From Ruegeria sp. HKCCA6707 (GTDB lineage Bacteria > Pseudomonadota > Alphaproteobacteria > Rhodobacterales > Rhodobacteraceae), in contig NZ_WQEG01000001.1 in assembly GCF_013033515.1 (NCBI RefSeq), forward strand, positions 310,001 to 374,000: DNA of 64,000 nt, read 5' to 3'. A model generated the notes under the pieces. The model was not told the DNA's origin. It did no database searches and saw only the letters and a list, made by a program, of their open reading frames with translations. Shown here in pieces: positions 46,671-62,248 of the stretch. Made by a program: the position numbers and the translations under genes. Every line of letters starts with the position of its first letter. Position 1 is the stretch's first letter.

Positions 46671-47365
46671 TGCGTATTCTCCAACAGTTCGGTCAGGGCG
46701 CGCAGTTGCGTGTCGGCCCCGTCTCGGATCAGCATGCCAAAGCGTTCGTCGGTGCCCAGAAAGACGCCACCGTCAGCCGAGGGTTCACCGACGCCACGCA
46801 GGAGGCCCATCCATTCGGCATGGAGCGGCGCGTTGCCATCCTCTTGCCAGCGATTGAGCCAGGTCAGCATGTGGCGCGACCAGCTTTCGACCAGTTGAGT
46901 TGCAGAGACATCGGCACAGCCTTCGTCGTAGAGCGCGGTCACGTCAGGCGTTTCCCCCGGTGCGTCACTGGTTTGCAGCAGCGTCAGCTCCCATCCAACG
47001 ATCAGCCAATCGGGCTCTGCTTCGGGTTCGCCCGTCGCGGCGGCAACCCTGAACCGACCACAGCGCGCGCCGTTTACGTGGATCTCGCCTGACCAGCCCA
47101 GATGCACGGCAACCTCGGGCGGAGCCAGCGCCCCCAGCGCGTTCTGAAAACCAACCGCGCAAAGCGGCAGCATCGCTATGGCGTCCTGCAAGCCAACTTC
47201 GGGGGCAAACACAATCGCCACCCGAAGGTAATTGGCCTGTATGTTGTAAACGACGGTGCCCGCATCACAGCCAAGTGCGGCCATGGCTTGCGCCCGCTCA
47301 AACGGGTCTTCCCCACCCTGAACCGGGTGGCCCGAGAGCAAGGGGTGAAAGACCGGTTCGCTCAT
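46667..47365 (-). CDS. Biotin/lipoate-protein-ligase-like protein without lysine
   Basis: The 232-residue protein has the overall order of a biotin/lipoate A/B ligase fold: an early AIVFAPEVGLQDAIAMLPLCAVGFQNAL helix and the LGWSGEIHVNGARCGRF segment where active ligases have a WPND...K motif. The catalytic lysine is replaced, and I find no lysine anywhere in the protein. It may bind a cofactor, lipoyl group or partner rather than catalyse ligation. Coupled by ATGA-type overlaps to Mrp/ApbC upstream and DUF6505 downstream. Confidence 0.7.
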   Translation of the reverse strand: MSEPVFHPLLSGHPVQGGEDPFERAQAMAALGCDAGTVVYNIQANYLRVAIVFAPEVGLQDAIAMLPLCAVGFQNALGALAPPEVAVHLGWSGEIHVNGARCGRFRVAAATGEPEAEPDWLIVGWELTLLQTSDAPGETPDVTALYDEGCADVSATQLVESWSRHMLTWLNRWQEDGNAPLHAEWMGLLRGVGEPSADGGVFLGTDERFGMLIRDGADTQLRALTELLENTQ

Positions 47366-48423
47366 GCGTTGCCTTGGGCGATCAGGTCGCGAGCGATCTT
47401 GCGGAACGCCTCGGCCTGCGCGCTTTCGGGTTTCGTCACCACAATCGGCGCACCGCCATCGGCGGCCAGACGGATGTCCAGATGCAGCGGGATTTCCCCC
47501 AGAAGCGGCACGCCCAAGGCCTGCGCCTCAGACGCGACGCCGCCATGGCCAAAGATATGTTCCTCATGCCCGCAATTGCTGCAAATATGGGTGGACATAT
47601 TCTCGATCATGCCAAGGATCGGTGTCTTGAGCTGGTTGAACATGTCGATCCCCTTGCGGGCATCGATCAGGGCCACATCCTGCGGTGTCGAGACAACTAT
47701 CGCGCCATCCACCTGGAACTTCTGGCTCAGCGTCAGTTGCACGTCTCCGGTTCCGGGCGGCAGGTCGACGATCAGAACGTCCAGAGCGCCCCATTGCACC
47801 TGCCCCATCATCTGTTGAAGTGCGCCCATCAGCATCGGGCCGCGCCAGACCACCGCCTGACCCTCGTTGGTCATCAGCCCCATCGACATCATGGTGACGC
47901 CGTGGTTGCGCAGCGGCAGGATCGTCTTGCCATCCGGGCTGGCCGGTCGGCCCGAGACGCCCAGCATCCGGGGTTGCGACGGCCCATAGACATCCGCATC
48001 CAGAAGGCCCACGCGGCGGCCTTCGGCTGCCAGCGCACATGCCAGGTTTGCCGACACGGTGGATTTGCCCACCCCGCCCTTGCCCGAGGCGACAGCGATA
48101 ATCCGGTCCACACCCGGCACCGCCTGGGGTCCGGTCTGCGACGGTTTGGGTTTGGGCTTGAGATCCGGCGGCGCTTTGTCGGAATGCGCGGTCAACATGG
48201 CCGAGACCTTGGAAACGCCGTCAACCATCTGCGCGGCCTGTTCAGCCGTGGCCCGCACCGGTTCCATCTTTTCGGCGTGTTTGGGATCAATCTCGAGCAC
48301 AAATCGCACCGTGTCACCATCCACGTTCAGCGCACGCACGACACCGGCGCTGACAATGTCCTGACCCGAGACCGGATCGGTGATCTTTTTGAGGTTCGCC
48401 AGAACCGCGTCACGGATGCTCAT
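47362..48423 (-). CDS. apbC: Mrp/NBP35 family P-loop Fe-S carrier (ApbC-like)
   Basis: The 353-residue protein has an N-terminal MIP18-like domain (about 1-85), a variable linker and an Mrp ATPase domain with deviant Walker A SGKGGVGKSTVSANLA, GPSQPRMLG and the paired cysteines of HICSNCGHEEHIFG that bridge a [4Fe-4S] cluster in the dimer. It delivers Fe-S clusters to target enzymes. Being beside a formate dehydrogenase region with more than six Fe-S sites, it may serve those proteins (inference). Confidence 0.9.
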   Translation of the reverse strand: MSIRDAVLANLKKITDPVSGQDIVSAGVVRALNVDGDTVRFVLEIDPKHAEKMEPVRATAEQAAQMVDGVSKVSAMLTAHSDKAPPDLKPKPKPSQTGPQAVPGVDRIIAVASGKGGVGKSTVSANLACALAAEGRRVGLLDADVYGPSQPRMLGVSGRPASPDGKTILPLRNHGVTMMSMGLMTNEGQAVVWRGPMLMGALQQMMGQVQWGALDVLIVDLPPGTGDVQLTLSQKFQVDGAIVVSTPQDVALIDARKGIDMFNQLKTPILGMIENMSTHICSNCGHEEHIFGHGGVASEAQALGVPLLGEIPLHLDIRLAADGGAPIVVTKPESAQAEAFRKIARDLIAQGNA

Positions 48424-48562
48424 GCGCCCTTCCCCTTGATCTGCCCCGTCTGGGGGGCTTTGCGTATCGACATAAACCCGTCGCCGCTCATTGCATGTCT
48501 CTCCGTCTTCTTCATTTTTCAGTTCATTTGACGCCTTGGCCCGCTGCCCGCTAGGCTAGACC

Positions 48563-49291
48563 ATGCGCTTTGTTCTCTTGTGCCTGAGCCTGACGCTCAC
48601 CGCCAGCCCTTCCTTGGGCCAGCAGGCGCTTGGGCTTGCCGCCCCAGAGGCGTTGGCAAACTCGGGCCTTTTGCAACATATCCTTCCGCGCTTCTCTCTC
48701 AAGACCGGGATCCGCGTTATTGCGGATGAGGCCGGAGAAATGTCGTTGAGCGCCGGGCCTAAGGGTGAACCCGTCTTTGCCCGCGACGGTGTGGTCTTCT
48801 ACCTCAGCATCACCGAGGATCCCAGGCAGGAACGGTTTCGCGACTGGCTGAGATCGGATATCGGCAAACGCACGGTCGAAAGCTTTACCCCCGATCAGGG
48901 AGCCCCCTTCAGTGCCAGTTTCGAAGTGGCGCAGGATCAGATCGAATTGGTGATCGATGGCAATGTGATTCTGGGCGAAGAGTTGTCGATGACGCATTGC
49001 GGACGCTGCCATGTGATCGGCCCCAAGAACCGGATGAACGGGTTGGGCTCGACCCCGTCTTTTGCGGTGCTGCGCGCGATGCCCAACTGGTCGGAACGGT
49101 TCGAGGCGTTCTTTGCCCTGAACCCGCACCCGTCTTTCACCCAGATCGAGGATGTCACGCCGCCTTTCGCCGCCGACCGCCCCTCGCCCATTCACCCGGT
49201 AGAGATGACGCTCGATGATCTCGAGGCGATCATCGCTTTTGTCTCGGTCATGGATGCGGCCGACCTTGGGGCCCCGCTGCAACTTCAGTGA
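48563..49291 (+). CDS. Periplasmic cytochrome c fused to a shrunken TupA-like binding domain
   Basis: The 242-residue protein has a signal peptide (about 1-19), a segment of about 90 residues resembling the two ends of a tungstate-binding protein (ANSGLLQHILPRFSLKTGI, then GEPVFARDGVVFYLS...RFRDWLRSDIGKRTVESF), and a C-terminal mono-haem domain with Cys146-Gly-Arg-Cys149-His150. The middle of the binding protein is missing. It probably carries electrons near the formate dehydrogenase. No ribosome site is evident before the ATG. It converges on the polyferredoxin gene with a 7-base overlap. Confidence 0.78.
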   Translation: MRFVLLCLSLTLTASPSLGQQALGLAAPEALANSGLLQHILPRFSLKTGIRVIADEAGEMSLSAGPKGEPVFARDGVVFYLSITEDPRQERFRDWLRSDIGKRTVESFTPDQGAPFSASFEVAQDQIELVIDGNVILGEELSMTHCGRCHVIGPKNRMNGLGSTPSFAVLRAMPNWSERFEAFFALNPHPSFTQIEDVTPPFAADRPSPIHPVEMTLDDLEAIIAFVSVMDAADLGAPLQLQ

Positions 49292-51240
49292 TCCTTGCGC
49301 TTTGAGAAATAGTCATCCGTCGTCACCACTTTGGGACGTGGCTTTGAGGCAAACGGATTGTCCTGACTGTGGAACTGCGCGTTCACGCGGCAATTGTCGC
49401 ACATCTGGATCATGCGCGCCTGATCCGAGCTGGCGAACATCGGATGCGAACCCGCCAGCTTGTCAATGATGCGTTCAACTGTGGATTTGACCCCAAACAA
49501 GGCCCCGCATTCAACGCAGGCATAGGGCTCTTCTTCATTGAGCACCCGTTGCGACAATGCGCCGTCGCTCAGGTCCAATTCGGGCACCAGGGTGATAGCC
49601 GTTTCCGGGCAAATGGTGCTGCACAGCCCGCATTGCAGGCAGGCATCCTGCTGGAAATTCAGCTGAGGTTTGTCGGGATTATCGATCAATGCTCCCGATG
49701 GGCAAAGCGATACGCAGCTGAGGCACAGGGTACAACTGTCAGTATCGACTGCAATCGCCCCATAGGGCGCGCCTTGCGGCAAGGGCAAAGGCGCCTCTGC
49801 CCCTGGGTTCAGCGCCTGTGCCGCCAGACGAGCGATTTGGCGTCGGTTGCCCAGAGGCAGCACCGGCTCTGCCAGCGGTTCGGGCACGTCTTGAGCATAA
49901 AGTGCATCCGACATCGCATCCGGGTCCTGAATGTCGATCAGACCCAGCTCGTCCGGCCCGGCGATGGCCTGCGCCAGCTCAAGCTCGCGATCCAGTGCAG
50001 CGCGCTCGGTTTTCGGCGAGACCAGAATATCGACACGTGCAAAGCCATGCGCCAGACCGGCCAACATCTCTGCGTGGCCAAAGCCCGAGACCACGCTTAG
50101 TTCGAAGGGAATGACATCGGCAGGCAGGCCCCGACCGAACCGGGCGGCAAGCCGCATCATCTCGGCCCCATGACCGTCATGGACCAAAAGGCGTGGCGCA
50201 TGTCCCCCGGCCTTGCGGTAGGCCCGCGCCAAGACACCCATACGTGACAGTACAGCCGCGACGGGCGGATCCTCATAAGTGATGGCGGTCGAGGGGCAGA
50301 GCGCAGCGCAGGACCCACACCCGGCGCAGGTCATCGGGTCGATCTGAACATGCTCACCCGCCGGGGTGATCGCCCCGGTTGGGCAGATATCCAAACAGTT
50401 GGAACACCCAGTCTGCTCGGCCCGTGAATGGGCACAAAGCGCTTCGTCCAGCCTGACATAAAGCGGTTTTTCGAACGTGCCGACCAGTTGCATGGCCTCC
50501 AGCGCAAGCCGGGTCACGGCTATCGGGTCTTTGGGATCTGCCCGCAAATACCCTTCGCGCTTTTCGGGGGCCGCAACCAAAGCGGTGCCGCCGGTAAGAT
50601 CGACTACGATGTCACATCGCGACACGGCCCCGTCCCGCGCTGGGCTCCAGCCAAAGGCGCCGCGACCGCCCGGTTCTAGCTGCTGCAGCTGGTCCAGCCG
50701 CAAGCTAAATCCACCCAACGCCCCACTGACGCTGCGCAGCTGACCGCGCACGACGTCATAGGCTCGGCTGAGCGGGTCCTCATCATCGGTGACCACCACA
50801 GTCACCGCCAGGGTATCTGAAAGCAAAGCCGCCAGATCATAGGCAGCGGCTCCGGGGCCTATGATGCAGCAAGTGCCCTCGCTGATCACATCCACACTTG
50901 GGATCACGGGTTGAGACACCAACGCCTCGGCCGCAAGCGCCGCCATCTTGGGCCCCGCATCGCCTCCCTGCTCGGACCAGCCGGCCCGGTCGCGCAGATC
51001 GACGAAACCGGGCTGTTCAACCCCAAGATCCTCGGCCAAATCGCGGAACACCTCTGTTTCCTGACCGCATGCGACAACCACCTGGCCTTCAGATTGCATC
51101 ATTTGAGCCGCCGCTTCCAATTGGCGGGTACAGAGCGCGGTGTAGACTTTGGAACAAGCTGCATCGCAGGCCCCGGAAATACTGTCAGCCTTAACGGCCT
51201 GCGTCCCTCCGCAATCACACAGAAGTATCTTGGCGGTCAT
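49285..51240 (-). CDS. Polyferredoxin, formate-dehydrogenase-associated 4Fe-4S protein
   Basis: The 651-residue soluble protein has four ferredoxin-like clusters: CSNCLDICP and CAGCGSCAALCP (about 280-315), and CTLCLSCVSLCP and CLQCGLCSTICP (about 505-550). The first lacks one cysteine spacing of the standard motif. A C-terminal CVEC...CDNC pair (about 590-630) may bind a metal. Between them is a Rossmann-like part. Homologues lie beside DUF3305/DUF3306/TorD/fdh genes in many proteobacteria and may supply electrons or assist FdhA maturation; the role is unproven. It is divergent from the fdh operon. Confidence 0.85.
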   Translation of the reverse strand: MTAKILLCDCGGTQAVKADSISGACDAACSKVYTALCTRQLEAAAQMMQSEGQVVVACGQETEVFRDLAEDLGVEQPGFVDLRDRAGWSEQGGDAGPKMAALAAEALVSQPVIPSVDVISEGTCCIIGPGAAAYDLAALLSDTLAVTVVVTDDEDPLSRAYDVVRGQLRSVSGALGGFSLRLDQLQQLEPGGRGAFGWSPARDGAVSRCDIVVDLTGGTALVAAPEKREGYLRADPKDPIAVTRLALEAMQLVGTFEKPLYVRLDEALCAHSRAEQTGCSNCLDICPTGAITPAGEHVQIDPMTCAGCGSCAALCPSTAITYEDPPVAAVLSRMGVLARAYRKAGGHAPRLLVHDGHGAEMMRLAARFGRGLPADVIPFELSVVSGFGHAEMLAGLAHGFARVDILVSPKTERAALDRELELAQAIAGPDELGLIDIQDPDAMSDALYAQDVPEPLAEPVLPLGNRRQIARLAAQALNPGAEAPLPLPQGAPYGAIAVDTDSCTLCLSCVSLCPSGALIDNPDKPQLNFQQDACLQCGLCSTICPETAITLVPELDLSDGALSQRVLNEEEPYACVECGALFGVKSTVERIIDKLAGSHPMFASSDQARMIQMCDNCRVNAQFHSQDNPFASKPRPKVVTTDDYFSKRKDH

Positions 51241-51452: not shown

Positions 51453-52040
51453 GTGGCAGGGGAGAGCCGTCTCGGGGAGGAATTGTTGGCTAGGGCCGCA
51501 AACCAGATTGAAATGCCAGTTGGCGTCGTCGTGCGCAAAACACCCGGAGTTACACGCTGGGCGAAGTGGAACTGGCGGGCTGTCGCTGCTTTACCCGGCG
51601 CGGGACCCGCAGATTGGGTCGAGATGCGCCGTGAAGGTGACGCGGTTGAATACCACGCGGCCACGTTGACGCTGACCCTTTGGGCGGACGAGACCGAGGC
51701 CTACCGTGTTAATCTGTCCGATAGCCAACCCTCGCTCTATCTGGTGTTGCGAGACGAGTTGAAGGGCGACACACCGCTAAATACCGTTCTGATCACAGCC
51801 TCGCCCTATGAGGGTCAGGACTATGCCGATACCGGTGAAGAGATCGTTGAGAAGATCCCGATGACCGAAGGATTGATTGCCTGGCTGCGGGATTTCACGC
51901 TCGAACATCACCGCGACGAGGTATTTGTCAAACGCCGCCGCGACAAGAAACGTGTTGATCTTGTGGAAGACGGCAAAGGCGACGCGCGGATCCGCCAGGC
52001 CTCGGATGTGTATCGCGCACCGCGCAGGGTGATGCAATGA
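51453..52040 (+). CDS. DUF3305 domain protein of the formate dehydrogenase cluster
   Basis: The 195-residue protein contains DUF3305 (about 20-160): MPVGVVVRKTPGVTRWAKWNW near the N-terminus and LVLRDE...VLITASPYEGQDY. It is a conserved companion of fdh operons with no biochemical role assigned; accessory or maturation function is likely. The start is uncertain: I take the GTG at 51453 with GGGAG six bases upstream, but the ATG at 51513 fits the domain edge. It overlaps DUF3306 by four bases. Confidence 0.78.
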   Translation: MAGESRLGEELLARAANQIEMPVGVVVRKTPGVTRWAKWNWRAVAALPGAGPADWVEMRREGDAVEYHAATLTLTLWADETEAYRVNLSDSQPSLYLVLRDELKGDTPLNTVLITASPYEGQDYADTGEEIVEKIPMTEGLIAWLRDFTLEHHRDEVFVKRRRDKKRVDLVEDGKGDARIRQASDVYRAPRRVMQ

Positions 52041-52630
52041 GCAGGCCTGGCGATTTCTGGTCTCGCCGCAAGGCTGCCGTTGAGGCCGAAGCCAAAGCCG
52101 AAGCGCTGGTCGCGGAACATCAGATTGTCGCTGAACAGCATGCCGAGTTGGAGGACAAAACCGACGCCGAGATATTGGCCGAGTTCGACCTGCCTGACCC
52201 GGATGCGCTTCAACCGGGCGATGATGTGTCGGGCTTCATGGCCAAAGCTGTACCTGACCGCCTGCGTCGCCGTGCGCTGCGCAGGTTGTGGCGGCTCAAT
52301 CCCGTATTGGCCAATGTGGATGGGCTGATTGATTACGGCGAGGACTATACCGATGCGGCCTGTGTGATCGAAAACCTGCAGACCGCCTATCAGGTTGGCA
52401 AAGGCATGATGGCCCATGTCGAGGCCTTGGCGGCGCAAGCCGAAGCGGATGCAGAAGCAACGGAAGAACCGGAAGAGGCCGCGCCAGAGCCCGAAGCCGA
52501 CCCCCTTTCCGAACCTGTTGTGATGGCTGATACCGGAGAGCCTGAGATCGAAGAGCCCGAGGCTGACCTGCCCCCTGCCCCGCGCCGCATGACGTTTGAA
52601 TTTGAAGGACAACCGCATGACCGCACCTGA
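52037..52630 (+). CDS. DUF3306 domain protein of the formate dehydrogenase cluster
   Basis: The 197-residue protein has a DUF3306 part (about 1-120), with FWSRRKAAVEAEAKAEAL at the start and RRRALRRLWRLNPVLANVDGLIDYGEDYTDAA in the middle, then a Glu/Pro/Ala-rich low-complexity tail (about 140-190). The family always travels with DUF3305 and fdh genes; role unknown. Its start overlaps DUF3305 (ATGA) and its end overlaps the TorD gene by 14 bases. Confidence 0.8.
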   Translation: MSRPGDFWSRRKAAVEAEAKAEALVAEHQIVAEQHAELEDKTDAEILAEFDLPDPDALQPGDDVSGFMAKAVPDRLRRRALRRLWRLNPVLANVDGLIDYGEDYTDAACVIENLQTAYQVGKGMMAHVEALAAQAEADAEATEEPEEAAPEPEADPLSEPVVMADTGEPEIEEPEADLPPAPRRMTFEFEGQPHDRT

Positions 52631-53228
52631 CGCGCATATTCTGGACGTCTCACCCGAGGATCGCCTGCGCGCGGATTTCTATAACTTTTTGGGCTTGCTG
52701 CTGGCGGGACCACCAGACCAGCTGTTGCTGGATCAGATGGCAGGGCTCAGCGGTGACGACTCGGATCTGGGTCAGGCCATTCAGGCCATGGCGCGGGTGG
52801 CCAAGGTGACAAAACCCGCTGCTGCCGAACGTGAGTTCAACGCATTGTTCATCGGTCTGGGACGGGGCGAGTTGCTGCCATATGCTAGTTTCTATCTCAC
52901 TGGTTTTCTGAATGAAAAACCGCTGGCGCAGCTGCGCAATGACATGGCCGCGCGCGGGATTACCCGTGCGCCCAATGTGTATGAACCCGAAGACAATATC
53001 GCCTCGATGATGGAGATGATGGCCGGCATGATCGTCGGGCGCTTCGGCAAACCGGCATCGCTTGAGGATCAAAAGACGTTCTGGAGCAAACATATCGGCC
53101 CTTGGGCCGCGCATTTCTATTCGGATTTGGAAGGTGCCGAGAACTCGGTCCTCTATGCCTCGGTCGGGACTGCTGGCCGTGTGTTCATGGAGATCGAACG
53201 GGAAGCGTTCCGAATGACGGCGGCCTAG
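52617..53228 (+). CDS. TorD/DmsD family molecular chaperone for formate dehydrogenase
   Basis: The 203-residue all-helical protein fits TorD_DmsD_NarJ: ADFYNFLGLLLAGPPDQLL early, ANEF-like EREFNALFIGLGRGELLPYASFYLTGF, and PNVYEPEDNIASMMEMM with the E-P-x-D-x-x motif of the family. These chaperones bind the Tat signal of a molybdo-enzyme until its cofactor is inserted. FdhA with its Tat signal is encoded just downstream. The start lies inside the end of DUF3306. Confidence 0.88.
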   Translation: MTAPDAHILDVSPEDRLRADFYNFLGLLLAGPPDQLLLDQMAGLSGDDSDLGQAIQAMARVAKVTKPAAAEREFNALFIGLGRGELLPYASFYLTGFLNEKPLAQLRNDMAARGITRAPNVYEPEDNIASMMEMMAGMIVGRFGKPASLEDQKTFWSKHIGPWAAHFYSDLEGAENSVLYASVGTAGRVFMEIEREAFRMTAA

Positions 53229-53579: not shown

Positions 53580-56474
53580 ATGCTTAGGAAAAAGACCAAC
53601 GGGGTTGCGAGACGCCCCCAGCGGACAAGTATCCTGTCCCAGATCGGCGAGAAAACCGTCGATCGCCGCGCATTTCTGCGTGGCTCGGGCCTGACGATCG
53701 GCGGCCTGGCCGCGATCAGCGCCACGGGTGGAACCGTGACGCAAGCCAGCGCCCAGACAGCGGCCAACGCCGCGGTCGAAAACATCAAATCCGTATGCAC
53801 CCACTGTTCCGTCGGCTGTACCGTTGTGGCCGAAGTGCAAAACGGCGTCTGGGTCGGGCAGGAACCCGGCTGGGACAGCCCGTTCAACCTGGGTGCACAT
53901 TGCGCCAAGGGGGCCTCGGTCCGCGAGCACGCCCATGGCGAACGCCGCCTGAAATACCCAATGAAAAAGGAAGGCGGAGAGTGGAAACGCATCAGCTGGG
54001 AACAGGCGATCGACGAGATCGGCGACGGCATGATGAATATCCGCGCCGAATCCGGGCCGGACAGCGTTTATTGGCTGGGCTCGGCCAAGCACAATAACGA
54101 ACAGGCCTATCTGTTCCGCAAATTCGCCGCCTATTGGGGCACGAACAATGTGGACCATCAGGCCCGTATCTGCCACTCGACCACGGTTGCGGGTGTTGCG
54201 AATACATGGGGCTACGGCGCCATGACCAATTCGTATAACGACATCCATAACTCTCGGGCCATCTTCATCATCGGCGGCAACCCGGCCGAGGCGCATCCCG
54301 TCTCGCTGCTGCACGTTCTGCGCGCGAAAGAGCAGAACAATGCCCCCCTGATCGTCTGCGATCCGCGCTTTACGCGCACCGCGGCCCATGCGGACGAATA
54401 CGTGCGGTTCCGTCCCGGTACCGATGTCGCGCTGATCTGGGGTATCCTGTGGCACATTTTCGACAACGGCTGGGAGGACAAAGAGTTCATCCGCACCCGT
54501 GTCTGGGGTATGGATCAGATCCGCACCGAAGTCGCCAACTGGAACCCCGAAGAGACCGAGCGCGTAACCGGTGTTCCCGGCTCACAGCTCAAGCGCGTTG
54601 CCCGGACAATGGTAAACAACCGTCCCGGCACCGTGATCTGGTGTATGGGAGGAACCCAGCACACCAACGGCAACAACAACACCCGCGCCTACTGCGTGCT
54701 TCAGCTTGCGCTTGGCAACATGGGCACCTCGGGTGGTGGCACCAACATCTTCCGTGGCCATGACAACGTGCAGGGCGCGACGGACCTGGGTGTTCTGTCC
54801 CATACGCTGCCCGGCTATTACGGCCTGTCCGCAGGTGCCTGGGGCCATTGGAGCCGTGTCTGGGGTGAAGATCTGGATTGGCTGAAAGGTCAGTTCGCGA
54901 CGATCAAGGACAAGGAAGGGAAAGACAAACCTCTGATGAACGAGCGCGGCATTCCGGTGTCCCGCTGGATCGACGGGGTCCTGGAAGACCCGGCCAACAT
55001 GGATCAGGACAACAACGTCCGGGCCATGGTTCTTTGGGGCCACGCACCCAATTCGCAGACCCGGATGACGGAAATGAAGACGGCGATGGAGAAGCTGGAC
55101 ATGCTGGTCGTGATCGACCCGTATCCCACCGTCTCAGCTGTACTGCATGACCGCACTGACGGCGTCTACCTGTTGCCCGCTTGTACGCAGTTCGAAACCC
55201 GTGGCTCGGTCACGGCATCGAACCGGTCGCTGCAATGGCGCGACAAGGTAGTAGATCCGCTGTTCGAAAGCCTGCCGGATGAGGTCATCATGGCCAAGTT
55301 CGCAAACAAGTTTGGCTGGGCAGATCGGCTTTTCCGCAATATCGAGATGGAGGACGCTGAAACCCCGAATGTCGAAAGCATCACGCGTGAGTTCAACTCG
55401 GGGCTCTGGACGATCGGCTATACCGGCCAGTCGCCGGAACGGCTGAAAAGCCATATGGCCAACCAGCACACGTTCGACAGGACAACGCTGCAAGCCATCG
55501 GAGGCCCGAACGACGGTGAATATTACGGACTGCCCTGGCCTTGCTGGGGAACGCCGGAGATGGGTCATACAGGGACTCCAAACCTCTATGACATGTCCAA
55601 ACCGGTGGCCGAAGGCGGCCTGACCTTCCGTGCCCGTTTCGGGGTGGAACGCGATGGCGACAACCTGTTGGCCGACGGGGTCTATAGTGTCGGTTCGGAA
55701 ATTCAGGATGGATATCCTGAGTTTACGATGCAGATGCTGATGGATCTTGGCTGGGACGGTGATCTGACGGCCGAGGAACGCGCTGCAATCGACGCGGTTG
55801 CAGGGCCGGAAACCAACTGGAAGACCGACCTTTCGGGCGGCATCCAGAGGGTTGCGATCGCGCATGGCTGCGCACCGTTCGGAAATGCCAAAGCCCGCGC
55901 GGTTGTCTGGACCTTCCCGGATCCAATCCCGCTGCATCGCGAGCCGCTGTACACCAACCGGCGTGATTTGGTTGAGGATTACCCAACCTATGAAGACCGG
56001 CACGCCTATCGTCTTCCCACGCTCTATGCGTCGATCCAAAAGAACGACTTTTCAAAGGATTATCCGATAATCCTCACGTCAGGTCGTTTGGTCGAGTATG
56101 AGGGTGGCGGCGACGAGACACGGTCGAACCCGTGGCTGGCCGAGTTGCAGCAGGACATGTTCGTCGAGATCAATCCCCGTGATGCCAACAACCTTGGCAT
56201 TCGCGACGGATCACAGGTCTGGGTCGAAGGTCCCGAAGGTGGCAAGGTTAAGGTAATGGCGATGCTGACCAACAGGGTTGGTGCGGGCGTGGCCTTCATG
56301 CCCTTCCACTTTGGTGGCCATTTCCAGGGCGAGGACCAGCGGCACAAATATCCCGCCGGTGCTGACCCTTACGTTCTGGGTGAAAGTACCAACACCGCCC
56401 AGACCTATGGCTATGATTCAGTGACCCAGATGCAAGAGACCAAAGCGACTCTTTGCAAGATCTGGGCAGCGTAA
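53580..56474 (+). CDS. fdhA: Formate dehydrogenase catalytic subunit FdhA (Mo/W-bis-MGD, Cys type)
   Basis: The 964-residue protein has a Tat signal (Arg29-Arg30, DRRAFLRG, and AISATGGTVTQASA), a [4Fe-4S] site Cys73/Cys76/Cys80/Cys108, and molybdopterin oxidoreductase domains with a C-terminal dinucleotide-binding domain (about 840-960). The metal ligand is Cys198 with neighbouring His199 (ARICHS) rather than selenocysteine, and no in-frame TGA occurs. It oxidises formate to CO2 in the periplasm, passing electrons to FdhB. GGAGG lies before the ATG. The nearby Tup transporter raises the possibility of tungsten. Confidence 0.93.
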   Translation: MLRKKTNGVARRPQRTSILSQIGEKTVDRRAFLRGSGLTIGGLAAISATGGTVTQASAQTAANAAVENIKSVCTHCSVGCTVVAEVQNGVWVGQEPGWDSPFNLGAHCAKGASVREHAHGERRLKYPMKKEGGEWKRISWEQAIDEIGDGMMNIRAESGPDSVYWLGSAKHNNEQAYLFRKFAAYWGTNNVDHQARICHSTTVAGVANTWGYGAMTNSYNDIHNSRAIFIIGGNPAEAHPVSLLHVLRAKEQNNAPLIVCDPRFTRTAAHADEYVRFRPGTDVALIWGILWHIFDNGWEDKEFIRTRVWGMDQIRTEVANWNPEETERVTGVPGSQLKRVARTMVNNRPGTVIWCMGGTQHTNGNNNTRAYCVLQLALGNMGTSGGGTNIFRGHDNVQGATDLGVLSHTLPGYYGLSAGAWGHWSRVWGEDLDWLKGQFATIKDKEGKDKPLMNERGIPVSRWIDGVLEDPANMDQDNNVRAMVLWGHAPNSQTRMTEMKTAMEKLDMLVVIDPYPTVSAVLHDRTDGVYLLPACTQFETRGSVTASNRSLQWRDKVVDPLFESLPDEVIMAKFANKFGWADRLFRNIEMEDAETPNVESITREFNSGLWTIGYTGQSPERLKSHMANQHTFDRTTLQAIGGPNDGEYYGLPWPCWGTPEMGHTGTPNLYDMSKPVAEGGLTFRARFGVERDGDNLLADGVYSVGSEIQDGYPEFTMQMLMDLGWDGDLTAEERAAIDAVAGPETNWKTDLSGGIQRVAIAHGCAPFGNAKARAVVWTFPDPIPLHREPLYTNRRDLVEDYPTYEDRHAYRLPTLYASIQKNDFSKDYPIILTSGRLVEYEGGGDETRSNPWLAELQQDMFVEINPRDANNLGIRDGSQVWVEGPEGGKVKVMAMLTNRVGAGVAFMPFHFGGHFQGEDQRHKYPAGADPYVLGESTNTAQTYGYDSVTQMQETKATLCKIWAA

Positions 56475-57133: not shown

Positions 57134-57162
57134 TCTGATCTTGGATTTTGACCGAGGTTCAG

Positions 57163-58362
57163 ATGCTGCGCTTTCTCACTGCAATCCTGTTCACCCTTGG
57201 ACTGACTCTTTCGGCTGCGGCCCAAACCACAGGGGATACAGCCGAACCCGATCGCGCACAGACTGGCGGCGCCACCACGCTTGAGGATATTCTGGCCCGA
57301 CAGCGCGGCGAGAAGGTCAATAGCAGCTATCGGTCCGAAAATACCGGACAGGGCAATGTCGAAGGTTTGCTGGGGCAGTTTGGCCCAAGCGGAGTAGCCT
57401 CGGACAGCGATGTCTATCGGCAACTGCGTTATGGATCGGCGGATGTGACCGTATCCTCTAATGGGCCGGCTGACAGTGTGCTGATTCAGGACGGTGGCAT
57501 GTGGTGGTGGGCGTTCCGAACCGGGCCTCTGCGCGAATATGGCACCTATATACTGGGCGGGATGCTGGCGATCATCATCCTGTTCTTTCTCCTGCGCGGG
57601 CGTATTCGCATTGATGGCGACAAAACCGGTCGCACGGTTACGCGGTTCAACAGTTTCGAACGATTTGGCCATTGGCTGTTTGCCGGATCGTTCCTGATCC
57701 TTGGCATCACCGGGCTGCTGACGCTCTATGGCCGCGACTTCCTGATCCCGCTTTTCGGCAAGGAAGGCTTCGCAACCATCGCGCAGGCCTGTAAATGGCT
57801 TCACAACAACCTGGCTTGGGCCTTCATGCTGGGCCTGATCATCGTAACCCTCAACTGGATCGCCCATAACATTCCCAACCGGACCGACCTGAAATGGCTG
57901 GCCGCTGGCGGCGGGCTATTCACCAAGGGCAGCCACCCGCCCGCCAGAAAGTTCAATGCCGGACAAAAGATTATCTTCTGGTCCTGCATCCTGTTGGGTA
58001 TCTCAATCAGCTTGTCGGGCCTTTCGCTGCTGTTTCCGTTCGAACTGCCGATGTTTGCCAAGACCTTTGCAATCGCCAATTCCACCGGGATCCCGCAGAT
58101 GTTCGGCCAGAACCTGCCGGTGCAGATGTCACCGCAAGAAGAGATGCAATACGCGCAGGTCTGGCACGTGATGGTGGCCTATGTGTTCATCGCCATCATC
58201 ATCGCCCATATCTATCTCGGCTCGGTCGGAATGGAAGGCGCGTTCGACGCCATGGGAACCGGCGAGGTCGAGGAACAATGGGCCCGCGAACACCATTCAT
58301 TGTGGCTGGAAGAGGTTCAGGAAAAAGAGGCTGGCAAAGCCGCCACCTCTCCCGCTGAATAA
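57163..58362 (+). CDS. fdhC: Formate dehydrogenase cytochrome b556 subunit FdhC
   Basis: The 399-residue protein has a cleavable signal (about 1-20), a 90-residue periplasmic N-terminal extension, and then about five membrane helices with haem-ligand histidines (ERFGHWLFAGSF, WLHNNLAWAF, WHVMVAYVFIAIIIAHIY). It receives electrons from FdhB and reduces quinone. The N-terminal extension is characteristic of the longer gamma subunits of this fdh type. I start at ATG 57163; an ATG at 57148 would shift the signal. The next gene begins at the base after its stop. Confidence 0.93.
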   Translation: MLRFLTAILFTLGLTLSAAAQTTGDTAEPDRAQTGGATTLEDILARQRGEKVNSSYRSENTGQGNVEGLLGQFGPSGVASDSDVYRQLRYGSADVTVSSNGPADSVLIQDGGMWWWAFRTGPLREYGTYILGGMLAIIILFFLLRGRIRIDGDKTGRTVTRFNSFERFGHWLFAGSFLILGITGLLTLYGRDFLIPLFGKEGFATIAQACKWLHNNLAWAFMLGLIIVTLNWIAHNIPNRTDLKWLAAGGGLFTKGSHPPARKFNAGQKIIFWSCILLGISISLSGLSLLFPFELPMFAKTFAIANSTGIPQMFGQNLPVQMSPQEEMQYAQVWHVMVAYVFIAIIIAHIYLGSVGMEGAFDAMGTGEVEEQWAREHHSLWLEEVQEKEAGKAATSPAE

Positions 58363-59622
58363 ATGCGCGGGCTGGTTCTGGCCTTTGCGCTGATCCCCCT
58401 GCCCGCCCTTGCAGAGTTCTTTACGCTCAAAGGCCATGGCGGGCCGATCATGGGCATCGCCACCGCACCTGATGGGCGCATCGCCACCGCCAGTTTCGAC
58501 AATTCCGTTGCCATCTGGACCGATCAGGCACCCGAGTGGCTAGAGGGGCATGAAGCGGCGGTCAACGTCGTCGCTTTCAACGGTACAGCCCTCTATTCCG
58601 CAGGTGATGACTTCACCCTGCGCCAATGGCCCGGCGGCAAAGTTCTGGGGCAGCACAAAGGCAAGATCGTGGGGCTTGCTGCTTCGAAAACCCATGTGGC
58701 AACGGCCAGTTGGGACGGCTCGATTGGGCTTTGGCCCATCGACGGTTCAAGCCCGACAGTCTTGGGGCCCACAGGAGGCGGCGTGAACGCGGTGGTGTTC
58801 TCACCCGACGGAGACCTGCTTTATTCGGCCGGCATGGACGGGTCATTGCGCATCTGGGATGTGGCATCCGGGTCCGAGCGCCAGCGCCTTTTGGAACACG
58901 GCTTTGGGATCAATGAATTGGTCCTGAATGCACAAGACAACTGGATCGCCTATGGCGCGGTCGATGGCGTCACCCGTATCCTTGACCTTTCCACCGGCGC
59001 AGAGCGCGACTTTACCCTGGACCGCCGCCCGATCCTGGCCCTGGCCCTCAGCCCGGACCGTCAAACATTGGCGGTGGGCGACGGCGAGGGATATATCATG
59101 CTGATCGACACGGTCGACTGGCGCATCACTCAGGATTTCCGCGCTACCCTGCGCGGCCCAGTCTGGGCTTTGGCCTTTTCGCCGGACGGGCAGAACATCC
59201 ACGCGGGCGGCATCGACGAGGCGATGTATAGCTGGCCCATCGCCACTTTGGGCGACCAGGACCAGATGGCTGCGGCAGAGCCCAGTTTCCTCAAAGACCC
59301 GAACGCCATGAGCAATGGCGAGCGGCAGTTTGCCCGCAAATGCTCGATCTGTCACAGCCTGACCCCCGACAACCAGCGCCGCGCGGGCCCGACTTTGCAC
59401 GGGATCTTCGGGCGCAGGGCTGGGGCACTGCCGGGATATTTCTACTCGGATATCCTGCAAGACTCTGATATCATTTGGGATGAGATAACAATCGACGCCC
59501 TGTTCGACGAAGGGCCGGACCACTATATCCCCGGCTCGAAGATGCCCATGCAACGCATCACCGAAGCACAAGACCGCGTTGATCTGATCGAGTTCCTGCG
59601 CCAAGCCACAGGCGCGCCATAG
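58363..59622 (+). CDS. Periplasmic WD40 beta-propeller fused to cytochrome c
   Basis: The 419-residue protein has a signal peptide (cut after LPALA, residue 17), a WD40-type propeller of about seven blades (about 20-295; for example VFSPDGDLLYSAGMDGSLRIWD) and a class I cytochrome c domain (about 315-419) with Cys327-Ser-Ile-Cys330-His331 and probable distal Met394 (PGSKMPM). It could be a soluble redox partner or assembly scaffold for FdhABC. The ATG directly follows the fdhC stop without its own ribosome site, so translation is coupled. Confidence 0.87.
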   Translation: MRGLVLAFALIPLPALAEFFTLKGHGGPIMGIATAPDGRIATASFDNSVAIWTDQAPEWLEGHEAAVNVVAFNGTALYSAGDDFTLRQWPGGKVLGQHKGKIVGLAASKTHVATASWDGSIGLWPIDGSSPTVLGPTGGGVNAVVFSPDGDLLYSAGMDGSLRIWDVASGSERQRLLEHGFGINELVLNAQDNWIAYGAVDGVTRILDLSTGAERDFTLDRRPILALALSPDRQTLAVGDGEGYIMLIDTVDWRITQDFRATLRGPVWALAFSPDGQNIHAGGIDEAMYSWPIATLGDQDQMAAAEPSFLKDPNAMSNGERQFARKCSICHSLTPDNQRRAGPTLHGIFGRRAGALPGYFYSDILQDSDIIWDEITIDALFDEGPDHYIPGSKMPMQRITEAQDRVDLIEFLRQATGAP

Positions 59623-59765: not shown

Positions 59766-60638
59766 ATGTCACAATACCTGACCACCCGCGAACTGGCCGA
59801 ATTGCTGCGCATTGGCGAGCGCAAAGCCTATGATCTGGCCTCGTCCGGCGAAGTGCCATGCGTCCGGGCCATGGGCAAACTGCTGTTCCCAAGGGCCGAG
59901 ATCATCGCCTGGCTCAACGCCTCACGGTCTGGCCCGCAGGTGGCCGAACCACCGCTGCCACCGATTGTGGCGGGCAGCCATGATCCACTGTTGGATTGGG
60001 CGCTGCGGGAAAGCGGGTCCGGTCTGGCGACCTATTACGATGGCTCCTTTGACGGACTGACCCGGCTGAAAGAGCGCAGCGCGCAGGCCGCGGCCCTGCA
60101 TATCCACGAAGAGGATGGGTTCAACACACAAGCCCTGCGCGACACGCTGGGCGAAGCGCCTGTGGTGCTGGTCGAACTTGCCCAACGCCAACGGGGGTTT
60201 CTGCTGGCCGCAGGCCAAGACGCACCATCCGGGTTTCACGACCTCAAATCCCGCCGCATCATCCTTCGTCAGAACAGCGCCGCCAGCCAGCGCCTTTTCG
60301 AGAAACAGCTCACGGCCCATGGGCTGTCGCTCGATGATCTCAACACCCTGCCCGGTTGCGCCCGCACCGAAGAAGACCTGGCCGCGACCCTGCGCGATGG
60401 GAAGGCTGATATCGGTTTTGGTCTGGGGGCGTTGGCGCAATCTTACGGGCTGGAATTCACCCCCACCCATACCGAGCGGCTGGACCTTGCCATCTGGCGC
60501 CGCGCCTATTTCGACCCTCCGATGCAGCAGCTTCTCAGCTTTTTGCGCAGCGACAGGTTTCACGCACGCGCTGCTGAAATGGGCGGCTATGACCTGCGCG
60601 GTTTGGGCCAGGTTCACTTCAATGGAGCCAACGGATAA
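59766..60638 (+). CDS. Excisionase-type HTH and PBP-like oxyanion domain regulator
   Basis: The 290-residue protein begins with an excisionase/MerR-like DNA-binding domain (residues 1-55: LTTRELAELLRIGERKAYDLASSGEVPCVRAMGKLLFPRAEIIAWL) and continues with a PBP-like domain (about 65-285) of the type linked to molybdate-binding proteins (DLKSRRIILRQNSAASQRLFE and GKADIGFGLGALAQ). It lacks a signal peptide, so it is cytoplasmic. It probably senses molybdate or tungstate and controls fdh and/or tup. Start abuts the preceding stop. Confidence 0.85.
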   Translation: MSQYLTTRELAELLRIGERKAYDLASSGEVPCVRAMGKLLFPRAEIIAWLNASRSGPQVAEPPLPPIVAGSHDPLLDWALRESGSGLATYYDGSFDGLTRLKERSAQAAALHIHEEDGFNTQALRDTLGEAPVVLVELAQRQRGFLLAAGQDAPSGFHDLKSRRIILRQNSAASQRLFEKQLTAHGLSLDDLNTLPGCARTEEDLAATLRDGKADIGFGLGALAQSYGLEFTPTHTERLDLAIWRRAYFDPPMQQLLSFLRSDRFHARAAEMGGYDLRGLGQVHFNGANG

Positions 60639-60677: not shown

Positions 60678-61493
60678 TCACTTTGCGTTCGGAAAGAAGA
60701 GCTGTTGGCCATCCAGCTGATAGGCTTCGATCGCGCTCTGCCCGTCCGGGCCGGTCAACCAGTCAATAAACCGCTGCCCCGCTGCGGCGCGCACGCCTGA
60801 GTGCTTTTCGGGATTCACAAGGATCACGCCATATTGATTGAACAAGGCCGGGTCGCCTTCGACAAGTATGTCCAAGTCCCCGCGATTGCCAAAGCTCAGC
60901 CACGTGGCCCGGTCTGTCAGCGCATAGGCTCCCATACCGCTTGCAATGTTCAATGTGGCCCCCATGCCCGACCCGGTTTCGCGATACCACGTCCCGGACG
61001 CATCCGTCGGGTCGATGCCCGTGCGCGCCCAGTGACCAAGTTCGGCCTTATGGGTGCCGCTGTCATCCCCGCGCGAGGCAAAGGGCGCTTGAGCCTCTGC
61101 CACGGCTGTTAGGGCAGCGACGATGTCATCACCACCTTTTACCTGCGCCGGATCCGATTTCGGACCGACCAACACAAAGTCGTTATACATAACATCAAAC
61201 CGTTCGACCCCCCAACCGTCGGCGACAAAAGCCTCTTCTGCGGGTTTCGAGTGCACAAGCAGCACATCCCCGTCGCCATTTCTTGCATTGCGGATCGCCT
61301 GCCCGGTGCCCACGGCTACCACCCGCACATCGATGCCGGTTTCAGCCTCGAACCCCGGCAGAATGAAATCGAGCAGCCCCGAATTCTGCGTTGAGGTGGT
61401 GGATTGCACGATGATGAACGGCGACTCGGCCCGGCTCTCGCCCGCTGTCACGGCAATAGCCACAAGGGCCGCTTTGATCATTGCGCGGATCAT
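60678..61493 (-). CDS. tupA: Tungstate/molybdate ABC transporter substrate-binding protein (TupA-like)
   Basis: The 271-residue protein has a signal peptide (about 1-22) and the TupA signature VQSTTSTQNSGLLDFILPGFE followed by GTGQAIRNARNGDGDVLLVHS, with ESRDDSGTHKAE-type SRGDDSGTHKAEL later. TupA proteins bind tungstate very tightly and with preference over molybdate. The gene is the last of the minus-strand tup operon and is convergent with the HTH-PBP regulator. Length is normal for the family. Confidence 0.88.
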   Translation of the reverse strand: MIRAMIKAALVAIAVTAGESRAESPFIIVQSTTSTQNSGLLDFILPGFEAETGIDVRVVAVGTGQAIRNARNGDGDVLLVHSKPAEEAFVADGWGVERFDVMYNDFVLVGPKSDPAQVKGGDDIVAALTAVAEAQAPFASRGDDSGTHKAELGHWARTGIDPTDASGTWYRETGSGMGATLNIASGMGAYALTDRATWLSFGNRGDLDILVEGDPALFNQYGVILVNPEKHSGVRAAAGQRFIDWLTGPDGQSAIEAYQLDGQQLFFPNAK

Positions 61494-61513: not shown

Positions 61514-62248
61514 TTAGGTTACCAGCCCACCCGCCAAATAACGGCGCGCAGCTTGCGTTATCGGTGCGTCCAACACCTGTTTGGCCGCACCTTGTTCGAC
61601 CACGCGACCGCCCTGCATCATCACGATATCCGCCGCCAGACGCCGGGCCTGCCCGATATCATGCGTGACCATGACAATGCGCACCCCGCGCGCCGAGGCG
61701 CGCCGGATCATCTGTTCGATCACCTGCGTGGCGCTTGGGTCCAATGCACTGGTCGGTTCGTCCAGAAACAGCGTTTCGGGATCCGTGGCCAGCGCGCGCA
61801 GAATGGCCAGCCGCTGCGCCTCACCCCCTGAAAGAGAACGCGCGGATTGACGGGCCTTGTCTTGCAAACCGCCTTCGGCCAAAAGTGCCGAGATCCGAGC
61901 CTTGCGGATCTCACGGCTCAATCCCTGACGTTTTAGCACAAAGTCCAGATTCGCCGCGACCGAGCGGCGCAAGAGCACCGGTTGCTGAAACACCATCGCT
62001 TGGCGCGCCATGTGCTCTGCGGTCAGGACACCACCCCGATACAGCACCTGCCCCTGATCGGCTGAGATCAACCCGTGCAGGCACCGCAGAAGCAGGCTTT
62101 TGCCCGCCCCATTGGGGCCAAGGATCAGGGTTGGCCCGGGACCGTCCAACCGAAGCTCTGCCACGTCCAGCAGAACCGAGCCTTTGCGTGCAAGCCTCAG
62201 CCCGCGTACCTTCAGGCCAGCGCCGGTTTCAGGTGCCAAGTCACGCAT
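61514..62248 (-). CDS. tupC: Tungstate ABC transporter ATP-binding protein (TupC-like)
   Basis: The 244-residue ATPase has Walker A GPNGAGKSLLLRCLHGL, Q-loop MVFQQPVLLRRS, signature LSGGEAQRLAILRAL, Walker B LFLDEPTSALD and H-loop MVTHDIGQARRLA. No regulatory TOBE domain follows, as expected for TupC. It overlaps the permease gene by eight bases and lies 20 bases upstream of tupA. Confidence 0.9.
   Translation of the reverse strand: MRDLAPETGAGLKVRGLRLARKGSVLLDVAELRLDGPGPTLILGPNGAGKSLLLRCLHGLISADQGQVLYRGGVLTAEHMARQAMVFQQPVLLRRSVAANLDFVLKRQGLSREIRKARISALLAEGGLQDKARQSARSLSGGEAQRLAILRALATDPETLFLDEPTSALDPSATQVIEQMIRRASARGVRIVMVTHDIGQARRLAADIVMMQGGRVVEQGAAKQVLDAPITQAARRYLAGGLVT

Follow-up and report, generated by a model that had tools for sequence, protein, structure and literature searches.

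The open reading frame at 48563..49291 (+) of the stretch analysed here encodes a 242-amino acid fusion of a predicted TupA lobe-A domain with a c-type cytochrome, which is probably a secreted single-haem cytochrome c that carries the lobe for docking and serves the adjacent periplasmic formate dehydrogenase. The stretch, hereafter the window, comprises 64,000 nucleotides of Ruegeria sp. HKCCA6707 (NZ_WQEG01000001.1, positions 310,001 to 374,000, forward strand). The first-pass annotation had placed the fusion at exactly these positions and on this strand, and made no mention of the conserved family to which it belongs, members of which are encoded by 74 of the 198 genomes sampled from the window's bacterial family. 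The presence of the fusion in these 74 genomes and in 80 named loci, drawn from Ruegeria and other Rhodobacterales, rules out an assembly error that joined two genes. Five plasmid records (Sagittula, Tateyamaria, and Sulfitobacter) also contain the gene, where its product is annotated as a hypothetical protein in four and as a c-type cytochrome in one. A scan of positions 48400 to 48620 for promoters and terminators found nothing.

The fusion protein begins with a putative Sec-type signal peptide (residues 1-19, 48563..48619, +), identified by eye and containing a helix at residues 2-13 in the structural model. This is followed by the TupA lobe-A domain (residues 20-120, 48620..48922, +), assigned from profiles and predicted fold, that includes the motif PRFSLK (residues 42-47, 48686..48703, +) and a segment with a profile-profile match to the C-terminal end of TupA (residues 86-122, 48818..48928, +). 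A variable linker leads into the c-type cytochrome domain (residues 133-242, 48959..49288, +), identified by Pfam and structural matches. The CxxCH haem domain that had been noted after the TupA-like part is present, with the haem-binding motif CGRCH at residues 146-150 (48998..49012, +), and His189 (49127..49129, +) is a candidate sixth haem ligand.

The relationship of the N-terminal domain to TupA had been proposed by eye from short strings shared with the TupA relative encoded in the same window (60678..61493, -), in which SGLLQHILPRFSLKTGI (fusion residues 34-50) lies opposite TupA residues 38-54 and RFRDWLRSDIGKRTVESF (fusion residues 91-108) lies opposite TupA residues 241-258. Pairwise BLAST of the fusion against this TupA only is not significant (E 0.05), and NCBIfam has no model that the window fusion protein matches at E 10; support for the by-eye match therefore had to come from families of sequences. 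A profile of 41 fusion family members was compared with a profile of 12 TupAs; the N-domain (residues 20-122) aligns with TupA residues 24-271 over 102 columns with one large central gap, at a probability of 97.9%, an E-value of 6.2e-13, and a score of 79.6. The highest score among 200 column-shuffled versions was 19.5, and each end of the domain matches separately, with residues 20-57 matching TupA 24-62 (E 1.4e-8) and residues 86-122 matching TupA 236-271 (E 3.6e-11); together these results rule out a chance likeness of short strings and bear out the proposed alignment with both the start and the end of TupA. The alignment jumps from about TupA residue 62 to about 203-206, such that lobe B is missing, in agreement with the claim that the central lobe is absent. 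The pairing of GEPVFARDGVVF holds inside the longer alignment, however it fails on its own, as the stretch of residues 58-85 alone gives no match to the TupA profile (E 0.43). When the six members with a long middle are left out, the best alignment covers the C-terminal part only (59 columns, E 3.3e-9). The haem domain searched against the TupA profile gives a probability of 0.3%.

The NCBIfam scan points to TupA rather than to binding proteins in general. The NCBIfam TupA model (NF041772) matches 23 of the 41 members, with a best E-value of 1.8e-6, while the only other binding-protein model in NCBIfam to be matched is found with a single member, arguing against a generic binding-protein match; the window fusion, without a match at E 10, does not reach the 400-bit cut-off of NF041772. 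Counting against TupA specificity, the Pfam family PBP_like_2, which is matched by the window TupA, has no match among the 41 members at E 1, and SBP_bac_1, SBP_bac_6, and SBP_bac_11 match two, one, and one of them, respectively. The 41-member profile searched against the PDB matches 3muq (E 3e-5), 5my5 (E 7e-4), and 3cvg (E 1e-3), and weakly 3lr1 (E 0.04) and 3kn3 (E 0.1). By their titles, 5my5 and 3lr1 are tungstate-binding proteins and 3cvg is a putative metal-binding protein only, while 3muq and 3kn3 are argued to be TupAs as well in the paper describing 5my5 (PMC5517513). Two of the long-middle members, L037 and L045, align to TupA residues 1-105 nearly without gaps. When L037 is used as the query, its residues 11-113 match the TupA of genome G140, and roughly the same range matches seven other open reading frames of 261-321 amino acids that have no haem-domain match.

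Structure prediction is consistent with this ancestry. An AlphaFold2 model was built on 47 sequences, consisting of the window protein and those of 46 named loci, and its pLDDT in ten-residue blocks is 89-95 over residues 21-120 and 53-82 over residues 121-240, where the haem is missing from the model. The predicted N-terminal domain resembles periplasmic binding proteins, with TupA 5my5 as its best match by VIA-align (Z 13.6, rmsd 2.0 Å over 101 residues, 21% identity), in which model residues 20..120 are superposed on residues 2..250 of the 5my5 chain. The next ranks are taken by 3cvg (Z 11.7), 3muq (Z 11.5), and 3kn3 (Z 10.9), with 3lr1 seventh; TupAs thus rank first, third, fourth, and seventh, with ModA/molybdate- and phosphate-binding proteins interspersed at Z 10-11, level with the lower TupAs. 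Beyond the clear lead of 5my5, the predicted fold alone would not single out TupA. Foldseek also places TupAs at ranks one to three, yet with E-values of 0.02-0.17. In Desulfovibrio alaskensis TupA (5my5), lobe A is described as residues 2-76 and 201-251 and lobe B as residues 91-200 (PMC5517513). Because the match to 5my5 retains the lobe A ranges, the N-domain of the fusion can be read as lobe A with lobe B deleted. Profiles and model together indicate that the N-domain represents lobe A of a tungstate-binding protein of the TupA type from which lobe B and the ligand residues have been lost, and the profile-profile and structure-prediction checks both returned the TupA family.

The C-terminal domain is assigned to the c-type cytochromes. 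The Pfam family Cytochrom_C scores below threshold with the window fusion (16.9 bits against a cut-off of 21.3) and is matched by 40 of the 41 family members at E <= 1. Residues C146, C149, and H150 are present in all 55 aligned haem domains, as are the residues of a PSF and a PH motif, with stand-alone cytochromes included in this set. When modelled alone, with modest confidence and without haem, the domain gives a best structural Z of 7.5, a level that the tool describes as common, and the best 50 structural matches listed are all, by title, c-type cytochromes or complexes containing one, weakly supporting a class I cytochrome c fold. Since His189 is found in 55/55 of the aligned haem domains and no Met column exceeds 31/55, His/His ligation of the haem by His150 and His189 is the simplest guess. 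The presence of His189 would further hint at a low-potential haem suited to accepting electrons from formate dehydrogenase. The PsbV cytochrome c-550 was considered as a bis-His relative and rejected, as it is a weak PDB match (E about 0.6) whose alignment places no His on His189.

The fusion gene is located within a formate dehydrogenase gene cluster. On one side lies a gene for an Mrp/NBP35-type Fe-S carrier ATPase (47362..48423, -), a neighbour in 80 of the 80 named loci, and on the other a gene for a 651-amino acid 4Fe-4S protein (49285..51240, -), a neighbour in 79 of the 80, that shares 7 bases with the end of the fusion gene. These are followed by genes encoding a DUF3305 protein (51453..52040, +), a DUF3306 protein (52037..52630, +), a TorD-family chaperone (52596..53228, +), the formate dehydrogenase alpha subunit FdhA with a Tat-type N-terminus by eye (53580..56474, +), and the cytochrome b gamma subunit FdhC (57148..58362, +). 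Across the 80 named fusion loci, DUF3305, DUF3306, TorD, and a small Tat protein are each found in 78 and FdhA in 77, and contig ends truncate the three loci without FdhA (L109, L110, and L114); the linkage to formate dehydrogenase that had been noted in the window is borne out by these loci. DUF3305, DUF3306, and a Tat-signal protein have been reported to accompany fdh operons, and the sole cytochrome named there, in the accessible portion of that account, is TorC (PMC4464133).

Further genes of the region include one directly 3′ of fdhC (58363 to 59622, +), encoding a WD40 beta-propeller fused to a cytochrome c domain, that is found in 68 of the 80 named fusion loci and represents a second cytochrome fusion in the fdh cluster. 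Between this gene and tupA lies a gene (59766 to 60638, +) for a protein with HTH_17 and PBP_like (PF12727) domains, perhaps a tungstate- or molybdate-responsive regulator. The TupA relative at 60678..61493 (-) is of the full-length two-lobed type and scores 216 bits with the NCBIfam TupA model, under its cut-off of 400, and its tungstate specificity is assigned by homology only; the ABC ATPase beside it (61514..62248, -) is taken as TupC on the basis of this position. In the two of the five plasmid records that were read, the fusion sits in the fdh cluster on plasmids of Sagittula stellata (L217) and Sulfitobacter sp. (L218). On the Sulfitobacter sp. plasmid the cluster adjoins genes for an ABC transporter, among them one for a substrate-binding protein, and is near bacteriochlorophyll genes. 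Both plasmids have a small DUF6494 gene between mrp and the fusion (L217:11753-11944 and L218:11685-11876), for which the gap of about 140 bases at this place in the window leaves no room.

When searched at E <= 1e-3, 81 of the 198 family genomes have a match, sorted by hand from the query ranges into 74 fusions, two cytochromes only, and five TupAs only. FdhA at >= 75% identity is encoded by 71 of the 74 fusion genomes and by 92 of the 198 family genomes overall, and a TupA-type protein by all 74 fusion genomes, all 92 FdhA genomes, and 138 of the 198 overall. The occurrence of TupA in 92/92 FdhA genomes suggests that this FdhA is a tungsten enzyme. The first-pass annotation had asked whether the fusion always occurs near fdh and tup genes. 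It is almost always near fdh; as for tup, tupA lies within about 20 kb of the fusion in 43 of the 74 genomes (within 5 kb in 25), on another contig in 28, and far off on the same contig in three. The fusion is lacking from 21 of the 92 FdhA genomes, among which some loci are cut by contig ends and two genomes encode only the cytochrome, on a different contig. The loci of 20 of these 21 genomes were read; in ten, the Mrp and Fe-S genes are adjacent and 58-393 bases apart, and the remainder are cut by contig ends or differently arranged. A motif search of the ten contiguous fdh clusters lacking the fusion found no remnants of the fusion gene, and a CxxCH in L147 was dismissed as spurious, as it spans a stop codon. 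The absence of the fusion gene from these ten contiguous clusters means that it is not essential and that formate dehydrogenase can do without it. In one fusion-less fdh cluster (L148:9775-11726) the 4Fe-4S gene matches in two overlapping pieces, representing either a broken gene or a sequencing error.

A class-wide profile search at an E-value of 1e-8 identified matches in 17 of 385 genomes, consisting of seven full fusions (five in the window's family and two in family f80) and ten cytochromes without the lobe in other alphaproteobacterial families. In the stretches read around these ten stand-alone cytochromes, FdhA is present with six, the Fe-S gene with one more, and no gene of the cluster with three; in L167, the stand-alone cytochrome occupies the same slot that the fusion has elsewhere. 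In a tree of the 55 haem domains, nine of the ten stand-alone cytochromes fall outside the fusions, five of these nine with FdhA, while L167, L048, and L049 branch from within the fusions, the latter two being the cytochrome-only members from the window's family. The bootstrap support of this tree is unsettled and some of its end branches are long; the reading that fits it best is a single gain of the lobe by a stand-alone cytochrome followed by three losses, four changes in all. The distance from the PRF motif to Trp95 also varies among members, being 52-57 residues in 31 of the 41, 58-63 in four, and 70-86 in six, compared to 199 in the window TupA, and these graded middle lengths suggest how a two-lobed binder was cut down. 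Five of the six members with the longest middle (L033, L037, L042, L045, and L050) are on deep fusion branches, however the sixth, L038, sits among short forms, so the trimming was not strictly one-way.

The residues by which TupA binds its ligand are gone from the fusion. In TupA, the oxyanion site is described as drawing on T9-T11/S12 and H59 from lobe A together with R118, T124, and D170 from lobe B (PMC5517513). Thr or Ser is found in none of the 41 fusion members at the columns of T32 and T33 of the window TupA, which belong to its TTTS motif, and across the four columns of this motif a Thr or Ser occurs at most once per member. The H59 region is deleted or changed and the lobe B ligand residues are deleted, leaving a protein without the two-lobed architecture and central ligand cleft of TupA. 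Other positions have become fixed: P42, R43, F44, and K47 are invariant in 41/41 members, and the TupA columns opposite R43 and K47 are variable. Median dN/dS values are 0.18 over residues 20-112 and 0.075 over residues 33-53, with 0.105 in the haem domain and 0.48 in the linker (residues 113-132); these were calculated from 48 sequences of Ruegeria and near relatives and are rough values, as median dS is 1.2-1.3 for most parts and near saturation. These ratios indicate that the lobe is kept under purifying selection and is not decaying, ruling out a neutral relic. The term remnant, used for the lobe in the first-pass annotation, is therefore misleading for a domain that is under selection and predicted to fold with high confidence.

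The preferred reading, judged somewhat better than even, is that the fusion protein is secreted and that its single haem carries electrons for the formate dehydrogenase encoded next door. The lobe would no longer bind tungstate and would instead dock on another protein, keeping the haem beside a partner in formate oxidation, perhaps FdhAB, the cytochrome b subunit FdhC, or the carrier that follows. The invariant Arg43 and Lys47 on helix 1 would be the likeliest contact residues, and a low-potential haem ligated by His150 and His189 may take electrons from formate dehydrogenase. Such a docking role is plausible and fits a lobe that is predicted to be folded and is constrained in sequence. The absence of the gene from ten contiguous fdh clusters and the loss of the lobe at least three times in the tree, while the cytochrome was kept, count against a docked carrier. 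The first-pass annotation had also offered an oxyanion-gated carrier, in which the lobe would still bind tungstate, molybdate, or formate and control electron flow. The descent of lobe A from a tungstate binder and the TupA-type protein in each of the 74 fusion genomes would favour such a sensor or gate, however the deletion of lobe B with its three ligand residues, the absence of the motif Thr pair in 41/41 members, and the deleted or changed H59 region leave it unsupported, and one lobe cannot close around a ligand. Because the tungstate-binding residues are gone, oxyanion gating is extremely improbable. Contact of the lobe with the TupBC tungstate permease or with TupA itself, an ancestral contact that would tie tungstate import to formate oxidation, draws on the proximity of tupA in 43/74 fusion genomes (within 5 kb in 25) and on the TupA-type protein in every FdhA genome. 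The gene is on another contig (28) or far off (3) in the remaining 31 fusion genomes, however, and the invariant new residues sit where helix 1 ends; in type II binding proteins this part points away from the side of the cleft that contacts the permease, such that docking on the Tup system appears very improbable. In a broader proposal, half of a periplasmic binding protein would have turned into an independent interaction domain that physically ties a haem carrier to the metal-enzyme system of its origin, with the lobe retaining contact with a Tup or Fdh partner and one physical link joining tungsten supply to the electron flow from formate; this is considered quite unlikely.

Two further roles would place less weight on docking. 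As a maturation or activation factor, the lobe would aid the assembly or activation of the exported formate dehydrogenase, with the haem serving in redox control, and the constant neighbours of the gene are indeed of the assembly type (Mrp, the 4Fe-4S protein, TorD, and DUF3305/DUF3306). Cofactor insertion in Tat-exported molybdoenzymes takes place in the cytoplasm, and is expected there for FdhA because of its Tat-type N-terminus by eye and the TorD-type chaperone, whereas the signal peptide of the fusion is, also by eye, of the Sec type; a maturation factor is accordingly placed among the unlikely readings. In a general periplasmic electron carrier, the lobe would do no more than stabilise the haem domain or set its spacing, and the closeness of the gene to fdh would be due to co-inheritance. 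The loss of the lobe in at least three lineages would agree with this, as would the three of ten stand-alone cytochromes outside the two fusion-bearing families that have no cluster gene in the stretch read. The very strong linkage to fdh in 80 named loci and on plasmids argues against a general carrier, as does the dN/dS of lobe residues 33-53, which is below that of the whole haem domain in a comparison of a peak with an average, and this reading is regarded as decidedly unlikely.

The fusion shows one lobe of a type II binding protein persisting as an independent domain, and it names a candidate electron carrier for a formate dehydrogenase found in 92 of the 198 family genomes sampled. No description of a TupA-lobe/cytochrome fusion was found in the literature titles or abstract openings searched, a coverage that takes in few subscription journals, and a search of the same coverage for single-lobe binding proteins found no paper; the word "cytochrome" does not occur in the main text of PMC13197769 in the form available. 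The fusion resembles TupA of the TupABC system (5my5; NF041772) in the sequence and predicted fold of lobe A, with both ends in order, and differs in having no lobe B and no ligand residues and in adding a haem domain, while a full TupA-type protein is also encoded in each fusion genome. With class I cytochromes c it shares the CxxCH motif, the Cytochrom_C match in 40/41 members, and c-type cytochromes among the best 50 structural matches listed, however it has the invariant His189 and no conserved Met, the typical though not universal sixth ligand, and its best Z is 7.5. The stand-alone cytochromes of other alphaproteobacterial families have the same haem domain, six of ten with FdhA, preceded by a short signal-peptide-like N-terminal stretch instead of a TupA lobe.

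For a docked carrier, the nearest precedent would appear to come from methanol oxidation. Cytochrome cGJ is a fusion of XoxG and XoxJ. It is described as an electron acceptor of the XoxF methanol dehydrogenase (PMC7082304, PMC10205796), and MxaJ, a bilobate protein resembling periplasmic binding proteins, has been proposed as an adapter between methanol dehydrogenase (MDH) and cytochrome cL in sea water, its role in methanol oxidation being described as unsettled (PMC9728263). The present fusion can be likened to MxaJ/XoxJ and cGJ by its architecture and fdh linkage, as each has a part derived from a binding protein that is joined to, or acts with, the cytochrome c of a periplasmic dehydrogenase. 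The natural covalent union of a binding-protein part and a cytochrome makes the adapter idea directly testable. Unlike these proteins, the fusion has one lobe, derived from TupA, and is found with a formate instead of a methanol dehydrogenase. A binding-protein part that accompanies a dehydrogenase cytochrome is of a known kind; in the present fusion the part is only half of such a protein, comes from another family, and goes with another dehydrogenase.
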